A stretch of 64,000 nucleotides of DNA from Caecibacter massiliensis (GTDB taxonomy: Bacteria > Bacillota > Negativicutes > Veillonellales > Megasphaeraceae): assembly GCA_900095875.1 (NCBI GenBank), contig LT608311.1, positions 1,054,001 through 1,118,000 of the forward strand, read 5' to 3'. The number at the start of each line of letters is the position of its first letter. Positions within the stretch are counted from its first letter, which is position 1. This document shows positions 2,800-44,719 of this stretch, piece after piece. Below the pieces are notes generated by a model, which was given only the letters and a program-made list of their open reading frames with translations, made no database searches and was not told the origin of the DNA. Position numbers and translations under genes: made by a program.

Positions 2800-3819
2800 T
2801 TGTCAACTATCAAAGATATTGCTAAGGAAGCCGGCGTTTCTATCGCTACCGTTTCGATCGTACTGAACGGCAAGGGAAAAGAACGAAAGATTTCCAAAGA
2901 AACACAATCCCGCATTTACGCCATTGCACAGCAGCTCAATTACGTGCCCAACCAGTCTGCCAAAAAGTTACGGGCCGCCCAGAAAGACAGCTACGCCGTC
3001 GCTTTTTACTGGGCCACGGACTTCCGTATCAACTACCTGGCCCGCATCACCCTGGGCATCCAGCAGGAAATCATGAATCTCAAAAAGAACATCCGCCTGA
3101 CCGTTATTCCCTATAAAGTAGATCACCTGGAAGAACAGATGAAATCGACACAAAACGATTTCTTCAACGGCATCATCATCGCCAACATGTCCAATACGGA
3201 TATGGAATTTCTCAATACGACCTATGTGCCGCCCTGTCCGGTCGTCTTGTTCAACAGGGAATCGCCGAAATTCAGCAGCGTCACTATGGACAACTATAAA
3301 GTCGGCCAGAACGTGGCCCGCCATTTCCTGGCAAAGGGTCTGTTCGACGCAGGCGTCCTGACCCATGACACGACGTTCCCCATCATGCGCCAGTGGATGC
3401 AGGGCTTCCTCGACACGTACAAAGAAGAAGGACACCCCATCGGCGAAGACCGGATTTACCTGTGTGAAACGTCGTCGGCCAGCGCCTTTGAAATCTGCAA
3501 GCGCCTGGCAGCGGAAGGCACCATGCCCAAAGCCATGTTCTGCGAATCGGACGTACTGGCCCATGGCATGCTCTTTGCCTGCTATGAAACGGGGATTGCC
3601 ATCCCCCAGGACGTAGAAGTATTTACCATCGGCATCAACATGCCGGAAATCAACGACTACACCGTACCATCCCTGTCGCGCATCGACATCCCCATGGGCG
3701 AAATCGGCCAGGAATGCCTGCGCATGACCGTCGATCTCATCGAAAAGAAAGTCCCCAGCCCGACGGTCCTCTTCCTGGAAGGCAAAACGATCATCGGCCA
3801 GTCTTCCCCCCTGGGATAA
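2800..3819 (+). CDS. LacI-family transcriptional regulator
   Basis: This 339-residue protein has the LacI layout: an N-terminal helix-turn-helix (STIKDIAKEAGVSIATVS, then a hinge helix around residues 47-60 with NQSAKKLR) followed by a periplasmic-binding-protein-like sugar domain. The start is TTG 2800-2802, with GGGAGGGG about 5 nt upstream; the HTH begins right after it, which supports this choice. No transport or catabolic operon adjoins it, so its targets are elsewhere. The D-xylonate-type genes at 54-57 kb have operator-like palindromes but no local regulator; a link is only speculation. Confidence 0.9.
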   Translation: MSTIKDIAKEAGVSIATVSIVLNGKGKERKISKETQSRIYAIAQQLNYVPNQSAKKLRAAQKDSYAVAFYWATDFRINYLARITLGIQQEIMNLKKNIRLTVIPYKVDHLEEQMKSTQNDFFNGIIIANMSNTDMEFLNTTYVPPCPVVLFNRESPKFSSVTMDNYKVGQNVARHFLAKGLFDAGVLTHDTTFPIMRQWMQGFLDTYKEEGHPIGEDRIYLCETSSASAFEICKRLAAEGTMPKAMFCESDVLAHGMLFACYETGIAIPQDVEVFTIGINMPEINDYTVPSLSRIDIPMGEIGQECLRMTVDLIEKKVPSPTVLFLEGKTIIGQSSPLG

Positions 3820-3866
3820 GGGATAGGAAGGGGATAGTTTTCAGTCTGTAGTTTACAGCGGTTAGA
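3813..3866 (-). repeat. degenerate 7-bp-phased tract
   Basis: Read on the minus strand, the gap after the LacI gene can be cut into heptamers such as TAACCGC, TGTAAAC, TACAGAC, TGAAAAC and TATCCCC. The period is kept while the sequence drifts. It belongs to the heptad family better seen at 8444-8499 and 14971-15033. This copy is the weakest. Confidence 0.45.
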
Positions 3867-5064: not shown

Positions 5065-5602
5065 AACACTTTTTCCACATACTCGCATTTCATCAGGAGA
5101 AAGGACAAAAAGAGAAGAAAGAGGTTCAAAACCAAAATAGACAATCCATTCTAATTTCAATCCACACACCTGCAAGGACGCGAGACAACGTTCCTACTGC
5201 CTTATTTTCCACAGTAATTACAGATTTTACTGACGCATGTATCGAGTTCTTTTTCTTCGTTTGTCAAGCTTTTTTATGAAAATGGTCTAAATTTTAATTT
5301 TCGTCTAATCTAGGTTTTTCCATTGCTGTTTTTGATGGATTTATATCAACGGATACTATATGCAGTCGTATATACATAAGAGCACTGCCTAGTAAAGACA
5401 GTGCTCTTATGGTGTTATATTTTTAGATTTTTCTTTCTTTTCCTTAAAAAAGATTTTTGTTGTTTTTTCCAGAAAAATTGAGTTTTTACCAGAAAAGACG
5501 GCCGTTCAGGCATCTTTTTCTTCTAATACTACATATAGTTCGAGATATGGCTCCATCAGGACTATATAAGTTCATCCAAAAACTGTATCATCGTTTTTTC
5601 TC
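5065..5602. other. AT-rich intergenic region with one hairpin
   Basis: No supported gene is seen here. A hairpin at 5376-5410 pairs ATAAGAGCACTG with CAGTGCTCTTAT around an 11-nt loop. It has no clean T-run. The rest is AT-rich sequence with no recognised RNA or protein. Confidence 0.5.
5376..5410. terminator. 12-bp perfect hairpin, possible terminator
   Basis: ATAAGAGCACTG and CAGTGCTCTTAT are perfect inverted repeats around an 11-nt loop. The T-rich tail is poor (TGGTGTTATATTTTTAG), so the terminator role is uncertain. Confidence 0.5.
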
Positions 5603-5714
5603 CTTGCATCTGACGGCCCCGCCGACGATGCCGGATGGAAACCGTCATCGGTCGTGGGTCCTGTATGCTGATTTTTGTATAAAAACATGATGTTCGACGA
5701 ACCGGCTGCGGCCT
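5603..5714 (+). repeat. mosaic intergenic element, first tandem copy
   Basis: In order it has the core word TTGCATCTGACGG, the GCCCCGCCGACGATGCC block, the arm CGGTCGTGGGTCC, an ATGCTGATTTTTGTATAAAA stretch, and a REP-like palindrome GTTCGACGAACCGGCT. The same order recurs at 14638-14843. Confidence 0.75.
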
Positions 5715-5731
5715 GCGAACGGCGGCCTTTC

Positions 5732-5837
5732 CGCCTTGCATCTGGTGCCATCTCGTGCGATTCAGGTCGGAAAGCGTCTCCTGTCGTGCAGCCTAATGCT
5801 GATTTTTGTGTAAAAATAGTCGGTTCGGCGAACCAGC
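5732..5837 (+). repeat. mosaic intergenic element, second tandem copy
   Basis: This is a diverged copy of the element at 5603-5714, about 129 bp downstream: CCTTGCATCTG, a decayed GTCGTGC arm, ATGCTGATTTTTGTGTAAAA, then GGTTCGGCGAACC. It runs into a heptad tract at 5840. Confidence 0.7.
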
Positions 5838-5839
5838 TT

Positions 5840-5902
5840 CATCAAACATCAAACATTAAACATCAAACTATCTCTTCCCACTAACCACCAGCCGCTAACG
5901 GC
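5840..5902 (+). repeat. 7-bp-phased array
   Basis: The units read in phase: CATCAAA, CATCAAA, CATTAAA, CATCAAA, CTATCTC, TTCCCAC, TAACCAC, CAGCCGC, TAACGGC. This order of motifs (CATCAAA, CTATCYC, TTCCCAC, TAACCAC) recurs at 14971-15033. Confidence 0.75.
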
Positions 5903-6082: not shown

Positions 6083-8137
6083 TCATCGTTTTTTCTTATA
6101 ATTTATATAAACGAATCCATTTTCATCACGCTCCATATGTTCGCTGGCATCTATATATCTTCGGATTGTGTTACGGCTCAGATGCATGGCGTTTACTAAG
6201 TCTATTATTTTTACTACTTGTTTTTCTTTCTGGATTTCATCAAAGATTTCTCTCATGAGGTCTTGTCGCAATTCTTTGTTTGTTTTTTTATCCGAATTGA
6301 TCATTATCCGTCCCCGGCCCAAATCGTCGAGGTCTTCGTTCCAGGCGGCGATTTCTCCCGTCGTGTCTATATGGTGGATGGGATAGTCGAAGGTGATGTA
6401 AAAGGGCGGTGGCGAGGCGAATTCGCGCAGGATGGCTTCAATCCTAAAGGCCGGCGGGGCCCCGACAGGGCTTTTGACGTCGAGCATGTCGAGGATGGCG
6501 TCGGCGTCACGGGAAAAGACTCCTGAGCCCGATGCCCGGTCCTGTGCTTTTTTGACAGTCTGGCTGCCTTTGCTGTAGTGATGGCAGTAGATGACGGCGC
6601 ACTGTTTCTGCGTCGATAGCCGGTCCAGCTGGTTGCAGAAGATGCCCATGTCGTGGGCGCTGTTTTCGTCGCCGTCGGTGATTTTGTAAATCGGGTCGAG
6701 GACGATGGCCGCAAAGTCTTCGTGGTGAATCCGGCGCAGGAGTTTGGGGAGCAGTGTCTCCAGCGATTCCGAGTAGCCGCGCAGGTTCCACAGGACGACC
6801 TGATCCGTCCGGGGATTTGTGATGGCCATGGCCTTGTAGATGTCGGCAAAGCGGTGATAACAGGAGTGTTCGTCCAGTTCGAAATTGATGTACAGGACCT
6901 GCCCCTGGGCGCACTGGTACGTATCCATCCAGCGCCGTCCTTCGGCAATGGAAATGCACAGTTCGATGAGGGCAAAGGATTTCCCCGCCTTGCTGGGTCC
7001 GGCGACCATCATCTTGTGTCCGCGCCGCAGGAGCCCTTCGATGAGGACCGGCCGCAGGGGCGGCATGTCGTCCCAGACAGCAGAGAGACGCTGCAGCGGC
7101 GGCAGGTTGTCGCGGCTGTTCTCGGCGTATTCGTACCATTCGTCGAAGGTCCGGGTGCCCGGCGTAAAGGGGATGAGGTACTGCTTGTGTCCGCTTCGCC
7201 AGATGCCGGGCAGGCGCATGAGGCGCGACGGGTTTTTATTTTGCATGTCTACAATAAACCCCTGACGGCGGCAATACTGATAGAGGTAGTCTACGCGCCG
7301 GCTGTAGAGGTCCGGGTCGCTGCCGGCGTCGATGCGTACGACGGCATGGATGCTTTTTCCAGCACTGTTTACAAGCGCAACTGTGGGCAATCTGAGGCTG
7401 CGTATCCATGAGAGCTGCTGCTGTAAGGAAAGTTCATCCGATTCTACCAGTGTATAGCGGTACTCGCTGACGTTCTCGTTGCGGATACCCTTGCCGTCCA
7501 GAGGGTTGATGCGTACCCAGGCACCGGCAAGAGGGTCATAAGACCCGAGGGCTTTTTCCACATCGCCATAGGTATCGATGGCCTTCAGGATATCGTCCTG
7601 CGTGCGGAAATAAATGCCCCGGCCACGGGGAATATAGCGGTGTTTATGCTGATAGGAACGCATAGAAAACCCGACGAATTCACCGGGCCGGAACAGGCGG
7701 GAGAGAAAGGTCTTCGTCTCCCTGAGGCCGTCCCAGGGATCCGGCGGCTCTGTAAGGGGATTGTCCCTGCCGTCACGAGACAGGGCAGGAACCGTGTCCA
7801 TGCGCTGGGGAAGTTCCTCGTCGGCTGATACGATGGAAATGGGCGTATCCAGCGTCCAGACTTCATCGGGGTCACTATATCCCCGGTCGCGGGCCATCTT
7901 GACCAGCGTCGCCCCGGTCACGCAGGCCCCGGAAGACTTGCGGAACGAGGCCCATTTGCAGGCACACTCCCCGTCATGGAAGCGCGCCATATCGCGGCGG
8001 CTCCAGCTCTCCCAGAGAGACAGGGGGAACTGCTCATACTTGAGGGCCATGCCGACCTCGCACCATTCACTGTACGTACAACTGGCCGGATCGATGGCAT
8101 CCAGTAATTCGTGTATATGAGTTGATATATAAGAAAT
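6083..8137 (-). CDS. phage/plasmid-type primase-helicase (PriCT-2, AEP-like, AAA domains)
   Basis: This large protein (684 residues from the proposed start) looks like a self-contained replication protein. From N to C: a PriCT-2-like domain (about 10-85, with W-C-x-V-G-M-A-L); a stretch with archaeo-eukaryotic-primase-like marks ESDE (232-235), SAGKSIHA (258-265) and RLMRLPG (305-311); a RepA/KaiC-like ATPase with Walker A GPSKAGKS (380-387), Walker B AAIVLDPIY and the downstream HH; and a C-terminal helix-turn-helix (LVNAMHLSRNTIRRYI). A strong AAAGGAGG at 8143-8150 precedes no ATG, GTG or TTG; the in-frame codon at usual spacing is ATT 8135-8137. The frame stays open to 8218, but that part is encoded by an intergenic repeat. 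It pairs with the DUF669-like gene upstream. Confidence 0.8.
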   Translation of the reverse strand: MSYISTHIHELLDAIDPASCTYSEWCEVGMALKYEQFPLSLWESWSRRDMARFHDGECACKWASFRKSSGACVTGATLVKMARDRGYSDPDEVWTLDTPISIVSADEELPQRMDTVPALSRDGRDNPLTEPPDPWDGLRETKTFLSRLFRPGEFVGFSMRSYQHKHRYIPRGRGIYFRTQDDILKAIDTYGDVEKALGSYDPLAGAWVRINPLDGKGIRNENVSEYRYTLVESDELSLQQQLSWIRSLRLPTVALVNSAGKSIHAVVRIDAGSDPDLYSRRVDYLYQYCRRQGFIVDMQNKNPSRLMRLPGIWRSGHKQYLIPFTPGTRTFDEWYEYAENSRDNLPPLQRLSAVWDDMPPLRPVLIEGLLRRGHKMMVAGPSKAGKSFALIELCISIAEGRRWMDTYQCAQGQVLYINFELDEHSCYHRFADIYKAMAITNPRTDQVVLWNLRGYSESLETLLPKLLRRIHHEDFAAIVLDPIYKITDGDENSAHDMGIFCNQLDRLSTQKQCAVIYCHHYSKGSQTVKKAQDRASGSGVFSRDADAILDMLDVKSPVGAPPAFRIEAILREFASPPPFYITFDYPIHHIDTTGEIAAWNEDLDDLGRGRIMINSDKKTNKELRQDLMREIFDEIQKEKQVVKIIDLVNAMHLSRNTIRRYIDASEHMERDENGFVYINYKKKR

Positions 8138-8154
8138 ATGATCGCCTCCTTTTT

Positions 8155-8181
8155 GGACCCACGGCCGGAGGTCGTGGGTCC
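8155..8181. repeat. 27-bp palindrome of two element arms
   Basis: GGACCCACGGCC and GGTCGTGGGTCC face each other around a GGA loop (12 bp with one G-T pair). These are the two arms that bound the larger mosaic elements elsewhere. The copy lies just upstream of the primase ribosome-binding site. Confidence 0.85.
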
Positions 8182-8182
8182 T

Positions 8183-8342
8183 ATGCTGATTTGATGAAAA
8201 TGAGGCCCCTTCCGCCACTCCGTGGCCCTATCTCTGCTCTCCGTTTTGGCGACCAGCCTGCATCTCCCTACGGGTCGATACCTGCTGGGCCAAAAAGGGC
8301 CCTCACGGGGACGGCAAAGATCCCCAGTCCGTCAAACCAGCT
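8183..8342. other. degenerate intergenic repeat remnants
   Basis: After the palindrome comes ATGCTGATTTGATGAAAAT, a decayed match to the ATGCTGATTTTTGTATAAAA segment of the mosaic element, then GC-rich sequence with a GTCCGTCAAACCAGCT relic of the REP-like hairpin. I see no gene. Confidence 0.5.
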
Positions 8343-8377
8343 GCTAGTTGCTAACCGCTGACTGCTAACTGCTGCCT
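8343..8377 (+). repeat. 7-bp-phased array, GCTNNYN units
   Basis: Five heptamers in phase read GCTAGTT, GCTAACC, GCTGACT, GCTAACT and GCTGCCT. Confidence 0.75.
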
Positions 8378-8443: not shown

Positions 8444-8499
8444 CCACTAACCACTGACCTACGGCCTACGACGAACGATGAACGAACTACTAACTACGA
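8444..8499 (+). repeat. 7-bp-phased array of eight drifting heptamers
   Basis: Eight consecutive heptamers read CCACTAA, CCACTGA, CCTACGG, CCTACGA, CGAACGA, TGAACGA, ACTACTA and ACTACGA. Each resembles its neighbour and phase is never lost. It ends about 11 nt before the stop codon of the DUF669-like gene (minus strand). Confidence 0.85.
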
Positions 8500-14637: not shown

Positions 14638-14843
14638 AACCCACGGCCGGAGACTTATTTCCCCTGTCTCACCCGGTATGACGCCATCTGCTTCGTTGTC
14701 ATCAGTCGCCATAGCGCCGCTATGACTCCTTCTTCCGCCTTGCATCTGACACCATCCCAGGCGATTCAGGATGGAAACCGTCCCCGGTCGTGGGTCCTTT
14801 AGTGCTGAGTTTATATAGAAAAGTCGGTTCGACGAACTGGTTT
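14638..14843 (+). repeat. mosaic 3'-UTR-type element, full copy
   Basis: It starts 3 nt after the PflX-like stop: arm AACCCACGGCCGG, a core with CATCTGCTTCGTTGTC, TAGCGCCGCTA and TTGCATCTGACACC, closing arm CCGGTCGTGGGTCC (to 14797), a GTTTATATAGAAAA stretch and a hairpin GTCGGTTCGACGAACTGG. The core aligns with the opposite strand of the 191-bp copies at 18002-18192 and 24398-24588. Confidence 0.8.
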
Positions 14844-14870
14844 CTTCGTCAAACTCCAAACTATCCCTTC
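14844..14870 (+). repeat. short 7-bp-phased tract
   Basis: It reads in phase CGTCAAA, CTCCAAA, CTATCCC and TTCCCGG, between two mosaic elements. Confidence 0.6.
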
Positions 14871-14970
14871 CCGGCCCCGCCGACGATGCCTGACGTAAAA
14901 CGCCAGCCGTCGCGGCACTAGGATTGCTAATTTTAAGTATAAAGAGCCGGTTCGACGAACCGGCTCTTTT
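14871..14970 (+). repeat. partial mosaic element with terminator-like REP hairpin
   Basis: It carries the segment CCCCGCCGACGATGCCTG, then ACGTAAAACGCCAGCCGTC, CGCGGCACTAGG, then a perfect hairpin AGAGCCGGTTCG/CGAACCGGCTCT with TTTT after it. The order matches the ends of the copies at 17950-18192 and 24350-24588 in reverse orientation. Confidence 0.8.
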
Positions 14971-15033
14971 CATCAAACACCAAACTTCAAACTATCCCTT
15001 CCCACTAATCACTGACCACCGGCCACTAACCAC
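14971..15033 (+). repeat. 7-bp-phased array of nine units
   Basis: Units in strict phase: CATCAAA, CACCAAA, CTTCAAA, CTATCCC, TTCCCAC, TAATCAC, TGACCAC, CGGCCAC, TAACCAC. A further phased piece TCGATGA, ACGACCA, ACGGCTC follows at 15048-15068, next to the stop of the dehydrogenase gene. Confidence 0.85.
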
Positions 15034-17928: not shown

Positions 17929-17950
17929 GGGCCGCAGGCAGCAGGTAGCA
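17929..17950 (-). repeat. short 7-bp-phased tract
   Basis: On the minus strand the units are TGCTACC, TGCTGCC and TGCGGCC, immediately beyond the T-run of the hairpin at 17950-17981. Confidence 0.6.
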
Positions 17951-17981
17951 AAAAAAGCCGGTTCGTCAAACCGGCTTTTTA
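17950..17981 (-). terminator. REP-like terminator of the DUF445 operon
   Basis: AAAGCCGGTTTG and CAAACCGGC-type arms around GACG, with a T-run on the minus strand, follow the 191-bp element. It is the last part of the composite 3' module after the second DUF445 gene. Confidence 0.8.
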
Positions 17982-18001
17982 TACTAAAATTCCCACCCCT
18001 A

Positions 18002-18192
18002 GTGCCACGACGGCTGGCGTTTTACGTCAGGCATTGTCGGCGGGGCCGTCAGATGCAAGGAGGATGGAGGGAGGCGTAGCGGGGCTACGCTGACTGACGA
18101 CGACGCCGCAGATGATGGTCCAGCCGGCGAGGCATAGTAAATAAGCCAGACGCCGCGGCACGTCAGGAAACAAGATTCCAGCCGTGGGTCCT
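18002..18192 (-). repeat. 191-bp element, copy 1
   Basis: It runs, on the minus strand, from AGGACCCACGG to CCGTCGTGGCAC. Imperfect inverted ends GTGCCACGACGGCTGGC and GTGCCGCGGCGTCTGGC lie inside it. It begins 4 nt after the stop codon of the DUF445 gene. The copy at 24398-24588 has the same length and, by hand, about 8 mismatches. Confidence 0.9.
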
Positions 18193-18196
18193 ACGA

Positions 18197-19480
18197 TTAC
18201 ATAAATAAGTTGCGGATGAAGGGTACAAAGAAGGGTTCGTATATGACTTTCAGGATGACGAAGACGAAGAGGCCCAAGGTGCCGCCTACGATGGCGCCGT
18301 TGATACGGATCCAGGCCAGGTCTTCACCGACTTTGCTTTCCAGGAAGGCATTGAATTTCTTCTTGTCAAAGCCGGACAACACTTCCCGCACGGCGACGCC
18401 GATGAGGGAGTGTTCGTGTTCCAGGATGATTTCACATCCCCGGCGGATCTGGTCGTCAATCCAGTCCTTGATTTCCGGGTACTGGCTGCAGTAGTCGAGG
18501 TAATGCATGAATTCCCCTTCCAGGAGATTCTGCAATTTGTCCTTGCCTTCTACGCCGGTGGTGAAATAGGCCTGGCTGGCGCGCTGCGTCGAGGTGAGCC
18601 ACATTTCTACAGGCAGGGAATCGACGAACTGATCCTGCCAGCGCTGTACCGTGTAGGTCAGCTGGCCATTCATAGCATACATCTGCAGTTCCAGTTTCTG
18701 ACACAGCCACTGCCGTTCTTTGCCGCCGGCGTGTTCCCACCGTTCCAGCCAGACGATGATGCCCTTCTGCACGTCTTTGGCTACTTTTTTGGTGTCGACC
18801 ATGCCCGTAAATTTATTCAGGGTCATGATGAGGTGCGGAGCCGTCCGGGATTCGGCCATCCATTCGTCGAGGGCCCGGATGAGGACGGTTTCAAATTCCT
18901 TGCTGCGCACGCAGTCCTTGATGAGGCCGATGATATCGGTGAGCATCTGGCTGTCCGGGTCTTCCAGCATGGTGATCATGCGGTCCTGCAAAAAGCTCAG
19001 CAGGGGCTGCCGCTTGAGGTAGGTCCGGATATGGGCCGCGATATACTGCTGATTCTTGCTCTGCCGGCCATATTCATAGGCCTGCTGGGCGACTTCAAAC
19101 AACAGGGTCCGGAATTTTTCCCGGCCGCCGCTGCTGGTCAACCAGTTCGTAAATTTGTCTACAAAGGAGACGGTATATAATTTGTCTTTCCACATGCCCG
19201 GCTGCAGCAGTTTTTCCGACACGACGTGGGTCATGCCGTCTATGATCTGCGTGCGGTGGCTGTAGACCAGTTCCGTGTGATAGGGAAATCCCAGAGGCCG
19301 TTCAAAGAGGGCCGTCACGGCGAACCAGTCGGCAATGCTGCCGATGAGGGCCGACTGGATGACGAAAAACAGCAGCTCTCCCAACAGGCCCACTTCGTGG
19401 CTGTACCACCACCAGAATACGAGGACAAAGCAGAGGAAAGATAAGGCCAGGATGGCATTTGCCCGCTGACGGTATGTCAT
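18197..19480 (-). CDS. DUF445 membrane protein (second of a tandem pair)
   Basis: This 427-residue protein belongs to DUF445, whose function is unknown. It has a hydrophobic N-terminal pair of helices (residues 8-60, including GSIADWFAVTALFERPLG, the family's best motif), a long helical middle likely to form coiled coils, and a C-terminal membrane helix (AIVGGTLGLFVFVILKVIY). Its ATG lies 1 nt after the stop of the first DUF445 gene, with AAAGGAGG inside that gene's end, so the two are co-translated. It is the last gene of a four-gene operon that starts at 22603. Confidence 0.85.
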   Translation of the reverse strand: MTYRQRANAILALSFLCFVLVFWWWYSHEVGLLGELLFFVIQSALIGSIADWFAVTALFERPLGFPYHTELVYSHRTQIIDGMTHVVSEKLLQPGMWKDKLYTVSFVDKFTNWLTSSGGREKFRTLLFEVAQQAYEYGRQSKNQQYIAAHIRTYLKRQPLLSFLQDRMITMLEDPDSQMLTDIIGLIKDCVRSKEFETVLIRALDEWMAESRTAPHLIMTLNKFTGMVDTKKVAKDVQKGIIVWLERWEHAGGKERQWLCQKLELQMYAMNGQLTYTVQRWQDQFVDSLPVEMWLTSTQRASQAYFTTGVEGKDKLQNLLEGEFMHYLDYCSQYPEIKDWIDDQIRRGCEIILEHEHSLIGVAVREVLSGFDKKKFNAFLESKVGEDLAWIRINGAIVGGTLGLFVFVILKVIYEPFFVPFIRNLFM

Positions 19481-22777: not shown

Positions 22778-23011
22778 CATTGAGATAGCGATGAGCAAAA
22801 CAAGTACCTGTAACAACGGTCGTCAGAGAACGCAGGCCATAGGCTGAAAGCCTGCCCGGCACGTATTGCAGCGAATGCCTTTGCGAGCAGAACGGGGGAA
22901 CCATGAGTATCCCGTTCCGGCAGCCGCCGTTACCGGTACCGAGTGGCAGTTATACTGCAACCAGAGTGGAACCACGGTCCGCCGCCTCTGAACGAGACGG
23001 CGGATTTTTGC
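22778..23011 (+). ncRNA. T-box leader, probably cysteine-specific
   Basis: The leader has a Stem I with AGTA (specifier-loop 5' side), a distal GGCTGAAAGCC-type loop, and a candidate UGC cysteine specifier at 22867-22869 followed by A. The T-box bulge AGAGTGGAACCACGG spans 22963-22977, and the terminator CCGCCG..CGGCGG plus T-run spans 22979-23009. Uncharged tRNA-Cys would favour the antiterminator and switch on cysK. Confidence 0.9.
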
Positions 23012-24128: not shown

Positions 24129-24160
24129 TGGTTAGTGGTTAGTGGGAAAGGGATAGTTTT
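24129..24160 (-). repeat. 7-bp-phased tract
   Basis: On the minus strand it reads CTATCCC, then (after one extra T) TTCCCAC, TAACCAC, TAACCAC, CAGC. These are the same units, in the same order, as at 5868 and 14992. Confidence 0.7.
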
Positions 24161-24313: not shown

Positions 24314-24349
24314 GGATAGTTTGGAGTTTGGAGTTTGATGTTTGATGAA
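24314..24349 (-). repeat. 7-bp-phased tract
   Basis: On the minus strand: CATCAAA, CATCAAA, CTCCAAA, CTCCAAA, CTATCCC, in phase. Confidence 0.75.
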
Positions 24350-24397
24350 GAAACCAGTTCGTCAAACCAGCTTTTTATACTAAAATTATCAGCTCTA

Positions 24398-24588
24398 GTG
24401 CCACGACGGCTGGCGTTTTACGTCAGGCATCGTCGGCGGGGCCGTCAGATGCAAGGAGGATGGAGGGAGGCGTAGCGGGGCTACGCTGACTGACGACGAC
24501 GACGCAGATGATGGTCCCGCCGGCGATGCATAGTAAATAAGCCAGACGCCGCGGCACGTCAGGAAACAAGTCCCCTGCCGTGGGTCCT
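24398..24588 (-). repeat. 191-bp element, copy 2
   Basis: It has the same length as the copy at 18002-18192 and about 8 differences by hand alignment. It begins 2 nt after the stop codon of the upstream gene at 24591 and is followed by a REP-like hairpin (24350-24377) with arms AGCTGGTTTG and AACTGGTTT. Confidence 0.9.
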
Positions 24589-24590
24589 AA

Positions 24591-25670
24591 TTACCACTCT
24601 ATCAATATCCGCTTTTTGTAATCCCTGTACCTTTTGAGTACTGTCTCATTCGTGTTGACCGCCCGTTTCAGCGACTGGTACGCCAGGGACCGCTTTTCTC
24701 CGTAATGATTGGCCAGGCGCAATGATACCGACGTGACGGGAGCCAGCCACCACGTATGGGTAAAGACCGCTGCCGTTACGCCAAGGGCATGGCACACGTA
24801 GGAAAGAACGGACCGACGGCCAAATTCATTTCCTTTCCGGTAGTCGGATAATTCCACTTTCCGGGATACGGAATAGGCAATGAGGATATACGGGATGACC
24901 GACGGGAACAGGCTGTCGCTCTGCACGGCCTCTGCCGCATCGACGTGTTCCAGCACATACTGGGACAGCTCTTCATTGGAAATACCGCTGTCGATCAGGT
25001 GGGCCGACATATCTCCCATCGTTACCTGACTGTAGACTTCATCCGTAGAGACAATATCGATGTGAGGATAACGTTCAAAAGCATTCTCTATATACTGGGC
25101 CGATTCCGTCGCTTTGAGCTGCAGTACGTCATTGATGCTGCCATCACTATTATAAATCGCTATATCCCAGCCGGGCTGTGTCGCCGACTGGGCCATTTCG
25201 GCATGGCATCCTGCCGGCAGGTGGCCATCGTTCAAATAGTCCGTATAGCGTATTTCAAATAATTTTCCCTTCAGACCGTTTACAAATCCTTCAAGCTGAT
25301 TTTCATCCATGCTCTCTATGGCACTGCGGAAATCCATATCGGCAGCCTTATCGGGATAGGCCAGCTCATAGGCCTGCTGCAGGTCATCGGGAATCTTCCA
25401 GCCCAGCAGGCGCTGCCAGAAATTCGGCAGACTCAGCCCAATGGAATCGAGGATCATATCCCGCTTCGTTTCCCCTTTCAACTGGCTTTTCGCCATGAGA
25501 TGCTGGATATCCTGATACTCCAGGGATTGTTCGCGCAGCCTGGCGATGAGCATATCAAAATCCCGCTGCCGGTAGGTCAGCCCGCGGACATTCCGTACCA
25601 TACCCACACTGCCCTTTGCGGCCCCTACGACAACGCCGCCAGCCAATTTCGCCATCTTTTTCTTTTCCAT
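24591..25670 (-). CDS. unrecognised protein with PD-(D/E)xK-like motif and membrane segment
   Basis: This 359-residue protein matches no family that I can name. It starts at ATG 25668-25670 with GGGAG 7 nt upstream. It has a glycine-rich N-terminus (KLAGGVVVGAAKGSVG), a helical region, then GKLFEIRYTDYLN, GWDIAIYNSDG and LQLKATES. The last three have the spacing of a PD-(D/E)xK nuclease core (E...D...QxK). A hydrophobic stretch (SYVCHALGVTAAVFTHTWWLA) near residue 310 and a very basic tail follow. A nuclease-like effector at the membrane is one reading; this is inference. Promoter TGGTATAAT at 25748-25756. Confidence 0.65.
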   Translation of the reverse strand: MEKKKMAKLAGGVVVGAAKGSVGMVRNVRGLTYRQRDFDMLIARLREQSLEYQDIQHLMAKSQLKGETKRDMILDSIGLSLPNFWQRLLGWKIPDDLQQAYELAYPDKAADMDFRSAIESMDENQLEGFVNGLKGKLFEIRYTDYLNDGHLPAGCHAEMAQSATQPGWDIAIYNSDGSINDVLQLKATESAQYIENAFERYPHIDIVSTDEVYSQVTMGDMSAHLIDSGISNEELSQYVLEHVDAAEAVQSDSLFPSVIPYILIAYSVSRKVELSDYRKGNEFGRRSVLSYVCHALGVTAAVFTHTWWLAPVTSVSLRLANHYGEKRSLAYQSLKRAVNTNETVLKRYRDYKKRILIEW

Positions 25671-35500: not shown

Positions 35501-35552
35501 AGCAGCCATCCACCGCCTTTCGATGAACGACGAACGGCCTGCGATAAACGGA
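35501..35552 (+). repeat. 7-bp-phased tract between ilvC and ilvB
   Basis: Units CGATGAA, CGACGAA, CGGCCTG, CGATAAA keep a 7-bp phase. The 22-bp word CTTTCGATGAACGAC-S-AACGGC (35518-35539) recurs at 15045-15066. Confidence 0.65.
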
Positions 35553-36635: not shown

Positions 36636-36941
36636 AAAAAAACTCCGCCCCTTCTGCAAGGGACGGAGTATAATCCGCGATACCACCCTGATTCCCGGAG
36701 CATTGCTGCAGCCGGGCTCTCTACAACGTACCAACATACGCGTTTCCTGTAACGGGGAACAGCCGTAGGCGCCTAATCTGATTCAGCACCGCTCTTCGGG
36801 GAGGACCTTCGTCTGCCGGCTCATACCGGCTCACACCACCCGCCGGCTCTCTGTCATGGGACCAGACACACTACTTTCTCCCGTCATCAGATTTTCATTA
36901 TGCATGACTATTTATTCCACTTCGCTATGGTTGCGAGGTAT
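36636..36941 (-). ncRNA. T-box leader of the ilvCBN operon
   Basis: On the minus strand the T-box bulge AATCAGGGTGGTATCGCGG spans 36693-36675. It is followed by the terminator ACTCCGTCCC..GGGGCGGAGT plus seven T (36670-36636). Stem I has GAAAGTAG and AGAGAG-type elements. The specifier region GAAGGTCCTCCCC holds GTC (Val) and CTC (Leu), so the amino acid is Val or Leu. Confidence 0.9.
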
Positions 36942-44670: not shown

Positions 44671-44703
44671 AAAAGGACTGCCCCCCCAGGCAGTCCTTTT
44701 TGT
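44671..44703 (+). terminator. Rho-independent terminator after hcp
   Basis: AAGGACTGCC and GGCAGTCCTT with a C-rich loop, then T5. It faces the porin gene and may serve both. Confidence 0.9.
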
Positions 44704-44719
44704 GTTTGAAGTTTGAAGT
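44703..44719 (+). repeat. two-unit heptad repeat
   Basis: TTTGAAG occurs twice in tandem (GTTTGAAGTTTGAAG), directly after the hcp terminator. On the minus strand this is CTTCAAA, one of the heptads at 14985. Confidence 0.5.

Follow-up and report, generated by a model that had tools for sequence, protein, structure and literature searches.

The drifting 7-bp tandem tracts that occupy many intergenic gaps in a 64-kb stretch of the Caecibacter massiliensis chromosome (hereafter the window; G000:C2:1054001-1118000, within a 2.65 Mb genome) are interpreted, at about even confidence, as the arms, often solo, of intergenic elements that resemble intervening sequences and carry an IVP gene. IVP denotes the four-helix-bundle or 23S-rRNA-intervening-sequence protein family (S23; PF05635, TIGR02436). 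To our knowledge, neither the cyanobacterial heptamer arrays nor the IVP/S23 protein has an accepted function, and the two puzzles are linked by the placement of IVP genes amid inverted heptamer arms, observed in Cyanobacteriota, Bacillota, Spirochaetota, Bacteroidota, Chloroflexota and viral contigs. The analysis suggests that heptamer repeats derive from, or form part of, a single widespread mobile element. It also opens to test how the arms are copied, which target the IVP protein binds and why the elements occupy CRISPR, restriction and DISARM operons, while providing genome annotation with a candidate identity for much unexplained intergenic DNA of rumen and gut Negativicutes.

Heptamer tracts of the window

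Analysis of 43 kb of gap DNA, drawn from 464 kb of the window's genome, yielded 78 segments of 21 bases with at least 16 lag-7 matches, as compared to 0.1 on average after dinucleotide shuffling; other lags from 2 to 30 never gave more than 38 such segments in the same gaps. Within the listed tracts, lag-7 identity ranged from 0.40 to 0.90 and that at lags 5, 6, 8 and 9 only from 0.03 to 0.42. Pure chance or base composition as the source of the arrays is ruled out by the shuffles. The preliminary description had proposed lag-7 autocorrelation as a check, and would have been abandoned had the signal been no higher than in shuffled DNA or confined to the window; the signal lies far above the shuffles and above all other lags, and arrays occur chromosome-wide as well as in other species. 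When each of the 11 listed tracts was compared with 1000 local shuffles, eight passed at 2/1000 or better, two lay at ~3% and one at 7.7%. The claim of at least ten phase-locked gaps is thus borne out individually for eight tracts, with two borderline, while the tract at 3813-3866 is not significant alone. Coding does not explain the arrays, as had been stated earlier. A “stop in all frames” or codon role was likewise dropped, since units of the AGCCACG and CGTGGTT type are free of stops on either strand. The features of the window are as follows.

3813..3866, minus strand: weak heptamer tract, C-rich strand minus, reached by 7.7% of shuffles; GATAGTTTTCAGTCTGTAGTTTACAG visible
5600..5840, plus strand: dispersed composite repeat, two tandem copies, module ending in the GGTTCGNCGAACC hairpin (self-BLAST; also at C2:1-3000, L050)
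5822..5834, no strand assigned: terminator-like palindrome GGTTCGGCGAACC, immediately 5' of the array (from sequence)
5840..5902, plus strand: heptamer array CATCAAA x4 - CTATCTC - TTCCCAC - TAACCAC (0/1000 shuffles)
8343..8377, plus strand: heptamer array of CTAACTG type (0/1000)
8444..8499, plus strand: drifting heptamer array ACCACTA..ACGAACG..AACTACT (0/1000)
14640..14965, plus strand: dispersed composite repeat copies (self-BLAST: 73.7% to L050, 66-90% to other window gaps)
14844..14870, plus strand: short heptamer tract past a hairpin, unit order as in the 14971 array (30/1000)
14941..14970, no strand assigned: terminator-like hairpin AAAGAGCCGGTTCGACGAACCGGCTCTTTT (from folding)
14971..15033, plus strand: heptamer array CATCAAA-CACCAAA-CTTCAAA-CTATCCC-TTCCCAC-TAATCAC.. 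(1/1000)
17929..17950, minus strand: short heptamer tract GCAGGCAGCAGGTAGC (2/1000)
17952..18200, minus strand: dispersed composite repeat copy with hairpin (self-BLAST: 93% identity to 24348-24594)
24129..24160, minus strand: heptamer array of TAACCAC type, 3' of cysK (0/1000)
24314..24349, minus strand: heptamer array CATCAAA/CTCCAAA (0/1000)
24348..24594, minus strand: dispersed composite repeat copy (self-BLAST)
35501..35552, plus strand: weak heptamer tract GATGAAC/GACGAAC in the gap between ilvC and a TPP-enzyme gene (28/1000)
44703..44719, minus strand: short heptamer tract GTTTGAA x2 (1/1000)

Self-BLAST detected a dispersed repeat of ~110-250 bp with 66-93% identity between window gaps. 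Copies of this composite repeat lie at 5.6-5.9, 14.6-15.0, 17.95-18.2 and 24.25-24.6 kb of the window and at C2:1-3000 (L050 1-3050), and its last module is the GGTTCGNCGAACC hairpin, followed by the array. The order CATCAAA(n)-CTATCCC-TTCCCAC-TAACCAC is present at 5840 and 14971 and, in shortened form, at 14844; the loci at 24314 and 24129 have it on the minus strand. The unit order reported earlier for three loci is real, but the loci are not independent: each tract is part of, or adjoins, a copy of the dispersed repeat, which rules out independent recurrence within the window, and the common order was inherited by copying of the composite repeat. The clustering of this repeat also partly accounts for the window being richer in arrays than the remainder of the sampled genome (genome-wide figures for which derive from 464 kb of sampled stretches and pattern searches). 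The repeat modules are built around GACGATGCCTGACGTAAAACGCCGGCCGTCG and GGTTCGNCGAACC, form clusters in the window region, at C2:0-3 kb and at ~2.22 Mb, and partly adjoin a primase-like prophage gene. Stand-alone arrays elsewhere in the genome (L005, L007, L021, L022, L026, L028) lie mostly beside ordinary terminators.

A primase/helicase gene (PriCT_2 + AAA_25) of the kind carried by prophages or satellites occupies window positions 6083-8218 on the minus strand, with a similar-looking counterpart at C2:3-5 kb (L034). An Rfam search over the window returned two T-boxes only (RF00230), at 22782-22992 (plus) 5' of cysK and at 36656-36896 (minus) 5' of ilvC, and no match on the arrays.

Array grammar, layout and turnover among genomes

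An EM logo of 78 arrays from three genomes gave A(.85) A/G C(.87) N N C(.79) N, that is, A-R-C-N-N-C-N, with 4.68 bits of information as against 2.81 +/- 0.06 when columns were permuted inside arrays. Distribution is patchy: ARCNNCN arrays occur in 56 of 380 Negativicutes genomes and 13 of 102 genera (one genome per species throughout). Zero-match genomes were used as the control here, because arrays with a purine at position 7 also match the reversed pattern, which is consequently not independent. Strong arrays number 13-14 per 100 kb in G002 and G005 (other Megasphaera) vs 3 in G000, the window's genome; four-unit pattern places number 238, 212 and 10, respectively. Samples of G013, G006, G009, G014 and G008 contained no arrays. 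Lag scans free of pattern bias revealed extreme densities in some of the genomes with ARCNNCN arrays: G188 has 24 arrays in 56 kb and G170 has 16 in 35 kb, almost exclusively at lags 7 and 14. Genomes of genus g65, many of them incomplete, hold one array per ~2-4 kb. Very long pure arrays were also observed, namely TAACCAC with ~28 units on a Pseudoalteromonas plasmid (L313 22842-23044; no annotated IVP gene in L313) and GAGCCAC with ~20 units in G113 (L298 17495-17641), which has no PF05635 match.

Turnover of units is heavy. In orthologous gaps of the two species G002 and G005, whose flanking genes are ~92% identical, the layout is retained and the units are swapped (for example, CTAACTG x2 vs CTAACCA x4), and elsewhere the element is present in one species only. 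Clean 7-bp indels between the two are occasional, unit exchange being too heavy to count them.

Neighbouring arrays less than 100 bp apart, with no ORF between them, are mostly inverted outwards (31 pairs, as compared to 5 inward and 13 in the same direction; outward vs inward p=6e-6), and the C-rich strands of outward pairs point away from an AT-rich core. An element of ~190 bp, with many copies in G002 and G005, comprises a hairpin, an arm, a TTTAAATTTAAA core, an inverted arm and a hairpin; the ORF-less arm-core-arm element of G005 (L212 19014-19254) is similarly dispersed, as judged from its many matches. The 464 kb sample of the window's genome holds one clear inverted array pair only. 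For ORF-less arms, complementarity to the true partner hardly exceeds that of permuted pairs (p 0.03-0.09), and a selected hairpin structure for these pairs is only weakly supported.

IVP genes between inverted arrays

Array DNA of Megasphaera genomes matched cyanobacterial plasmids with a “four helix bundle protein” gene between arrays, and the IVP family was then sought regardless of arrays. Proteins between the arms in relatives match PF05635/TIGR02436 and have solved relatives (2GSC, 2RLD). A gene was scored as having both flanks arrayed when arrays lay in each 110-bp flank, a period of 6-9 being allowed in the Negativicutes test. The plasmid set covers five phyla; 24 of its 25 IVP genes were found by tblastn protein search and the remaining one (L312) via its arrays. 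Both flanks were arrayed for 20/25 plasmid IVP genes vs 4/159 other annotated CDS (p=1.8e-18) and 0/112 small CDS neighbours; the loci include orthologous copies (three Nostoc, two Planktothrix; effective n below 25), so that p-values overstate independence, though the five phyla agree. The same holds for 11/24 Negativicutes IVP genes vs 25/507 non-IVP ORFs in these genomes (p=4e-8; greedy ORF calls in unannotated genomes), and for 9/11 IVP genes of viral contigs vs 7/46 (p=5e-5).

The flanks are furthermore complementary to each other, with a median score of 26 vs 9 for plasmid IVP genes (p=6e-12) and p=1.5e-7 in Negativicutes, and folds of whole IVP elements predict 21-38 arm-to-arm base pairs. 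Across the 380 genomes, IVP genes and arrays occur together in 37, arrays only in 19, IVP genes only in 42 and neither in 282 (OR 13, p=5e-16), an association also present inside g65 (p=0.005) and inside Megasphaera (p=0.04). G338, G017 and G212 have no ARCNNC arrays, yet several of their IVP genes are flanked by arms, or by arms with an 8-bp period. In G342, clear arms are missing from most IVP loci, and nine genomes in which 5 or more array matches were counted have no IVP gene, among them G025 and G113, whose arrays are long and pure. The arms of IVP genes in G002 are built of CATCAAA, the main unit of the window. An S23/IVP ORF between complementary ends was accordingly found in relatives, plasmids and viral contigs, and no PF05635 gene was found in the window's genome.

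IVP genes often lie between genes of one operon, such as hsdS/hsdR, cas2/cas1, drmD/pglX, helicase/methylase and rfbA/rfbB. The rfbA/rfbB insertion point is common to G002, G014 and G017, and the arm units differ among them. The IVP genes of L341, L354, L355, L356, L358, L360, L361 and L363, the majority of which have heptamer arms, are located within defence operons, in the intervals from hsdS to hsdR, cas2 to cas1, drmD to pglX/MmeI and DUF1156 to Swt1-HEPN. The arms at L333 and L335 have a period of 8 (AGTGATTA, AGATCGAC), and the step of 7 is therefore not absolute. Alignment of IVP proteins separates two types, both armed, namely LLRSGTSIGANIREA.. (cyanobacteria and others) and LRRAAVSIPSNIAEG.. 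(G002, G170, G172).

Proposed element, alternative readings and known systems

A full element would consist of an arm (G-rich strand), the IVP gene and a second arm (C-rich strand), the two arms forming inverted, complementary phased repeats of 7 bp, or 8 bp in a few lineages. Reduced forms would retain either both arms, separated by a short core rich in AT, or one arm only, beside a terminator hairpin, and the window would contain such single arms or decayed copies. As its genome is without an IVP gene, this assignment is extrapolated from relatives and constitutes the weakest step. The arms would belong to the element instead of being its landing site, and the element itself is presumed mobile. 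By analogy with the 23S rRNA IVS, arm RNAs may pair into a long stem at which RNase III could cut, which would make insertion between operon genes tolerable. Slippage in steps of 7 bp may lengthen or shorten the arms and exchange among copies may rewrite their units, giving rise to host-specific units, while the asymmetry of C-rich and G-rich strands would stop each arm from folding on itself. A wider proposal is advanced tentatively and at less than even confidence: phased heptamer arrays across the bacteria, including the cyanobacterial STRR, would be arms of one selfish S23/IVP-encoding class, an intervening sequence for mRNA and intergenic DNA that survives in operons via paired, cut-out arms and leaves solo arms behind.

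An unlikely yet serious alternative holds that the arrays are neutral polymerase-slippage repeats in unconstrained DNA past terminators, and that IVP elements land in array-rich spots without being their source. Arrays do exist in IVP-free genomes, including that of the window; in many bacteria no class of long simple repeat is commoner than the heptamers, and slippage was proposed as the cause (summarised in PMC4679880). The clean 7-bp indels that now and then separate G002 from G005 agree with such slippage. Nevertheless, insertion into a single pre-existing array predicts direct flanks, whereas IVP arms are inverted and complementary; IVP genes are armed even in genomes lacking ARCNNC arrays, and neutral drift predicts no fixed A-R-C..C with free positions 4, 5 and 7 (4.68 vs 2.81 bits).

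That IVP is an ordinary small gene, its arms merely the array background of array-rich genomes, appears very improbable: the arrays of g65 are dense enough (every ~2-4 kb) to lend it some credit, but only 5% of other genes in the same genomes and 0/112 plasmid small CDS have both flanks arrayed, and the association spans five phyla and viral contigs. The arrays might instead recruit a protein that binds DNA or RNA and acts on the ends of transcripts or on the start of translation, a role suggested for the TAACTGA repeats; this reading is considered improbable. The omega repressor, which binds unspaced 7-bp heptads, offers a precedent; the grammar is common to several species, and arrays adjoin terminator hairpins in Megasphaera and sometimes lie directly 5' of the Shine-Dalgarno in other genera. 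Nonetheless, units are swapped at one locus between relatives whose neighbouring genes are 92% identical, unlike a conserved operator; genes next to arrays are unrelated, and sister species lack arrays.

Comparison with known systems places the window tracts among degenerate heptanucleotide arrays. They consist of tandem 7-bp units, non-coding and beyond chance, at many dispersed loci per genome, and the kinship in kind with cyanobacterial STRR drawn in the preliminary description is upheld; the long heptanucleotide repeats of cyanobacteria are similarly intergenic, with many families per genome and drifting units. The view that the arrays are an STRR phenomenon in their own right was not supported: unlike the STRR as reported, arrays form inverted arms around IVP genes, both in relatives and across five phyla. 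The present arrays further differ in their Negativicutes host and in the shared ARCNNCN grammar. The suggestion of novelty in Negativicutes agrees with a literature search, which returned no report of Megasphaera heptamer arrays; a search for IVP/S23/TIGR02436 with heptamers also returned nothing, most subscription journals lying outside the reach of both, and priority is accordingly uncertain.

For the TAACTGA heptamers of Beggiatoaceae, Cyanobacteria and Bacteroidetes, post-transcriptional binding sites were proposed, and an unnamed multi-copy protein was noted with the IVP family not mentioned (PMC4679880). These repeats, which are strain-specific, resemble the present arrays in being intergenic, scattered across phyla, of mixed types and, in some genomes, near start codons (as in g65). 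They differ in that their unit AACTGAT breaks ARCNNCN at position 6 and that no IVP link was made for them; no exact TAACTGA tandem was found among the listed arrays, whose units follow ARCNNCN. The GGGNATC heptamers of Xanthomonas and Nostoc, tied to G-quadruplexes (PMC4692102), likewise form intergenic arrays that are scarce between divergent genes, but their unit is G-quadruplex-forming, whereas the present arrays mostly lack G-tracts. A G-quadruplex reading was rejected as the logo has no G-tract, although some arrays of G005 (GGGGCTA) are close to having one.

With the 23S rRNA IVS carrying S23p, for example that of Coxiella, in which RNase III cutting is established (PMC4990558), the elements share a small ORF, the protein family and stem-capable complementary ends. 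However, the genes on either side of the arrays and of the IVP genes encode proteins, neither being located inside an rRNA gene, and the ends are phased heptamer arrays. REP/BIME and MITE-like repeats are likewise dispersed, palindromic, non-coding, mosaic and copied in gaps; unlike them, the present arms are tandem heptamers of host-specific sequence. Within the window, the module at 8215-8330 (CTGCTCTCCGTTTTGGC..GGGCCAAAAAGGGCCC) resembles, by eye, the GGGCCGCCC..GGGACGGCCCC dispersed repeat that adjoins arrays in G002 and G005, and the two possibly represent an older shared element.
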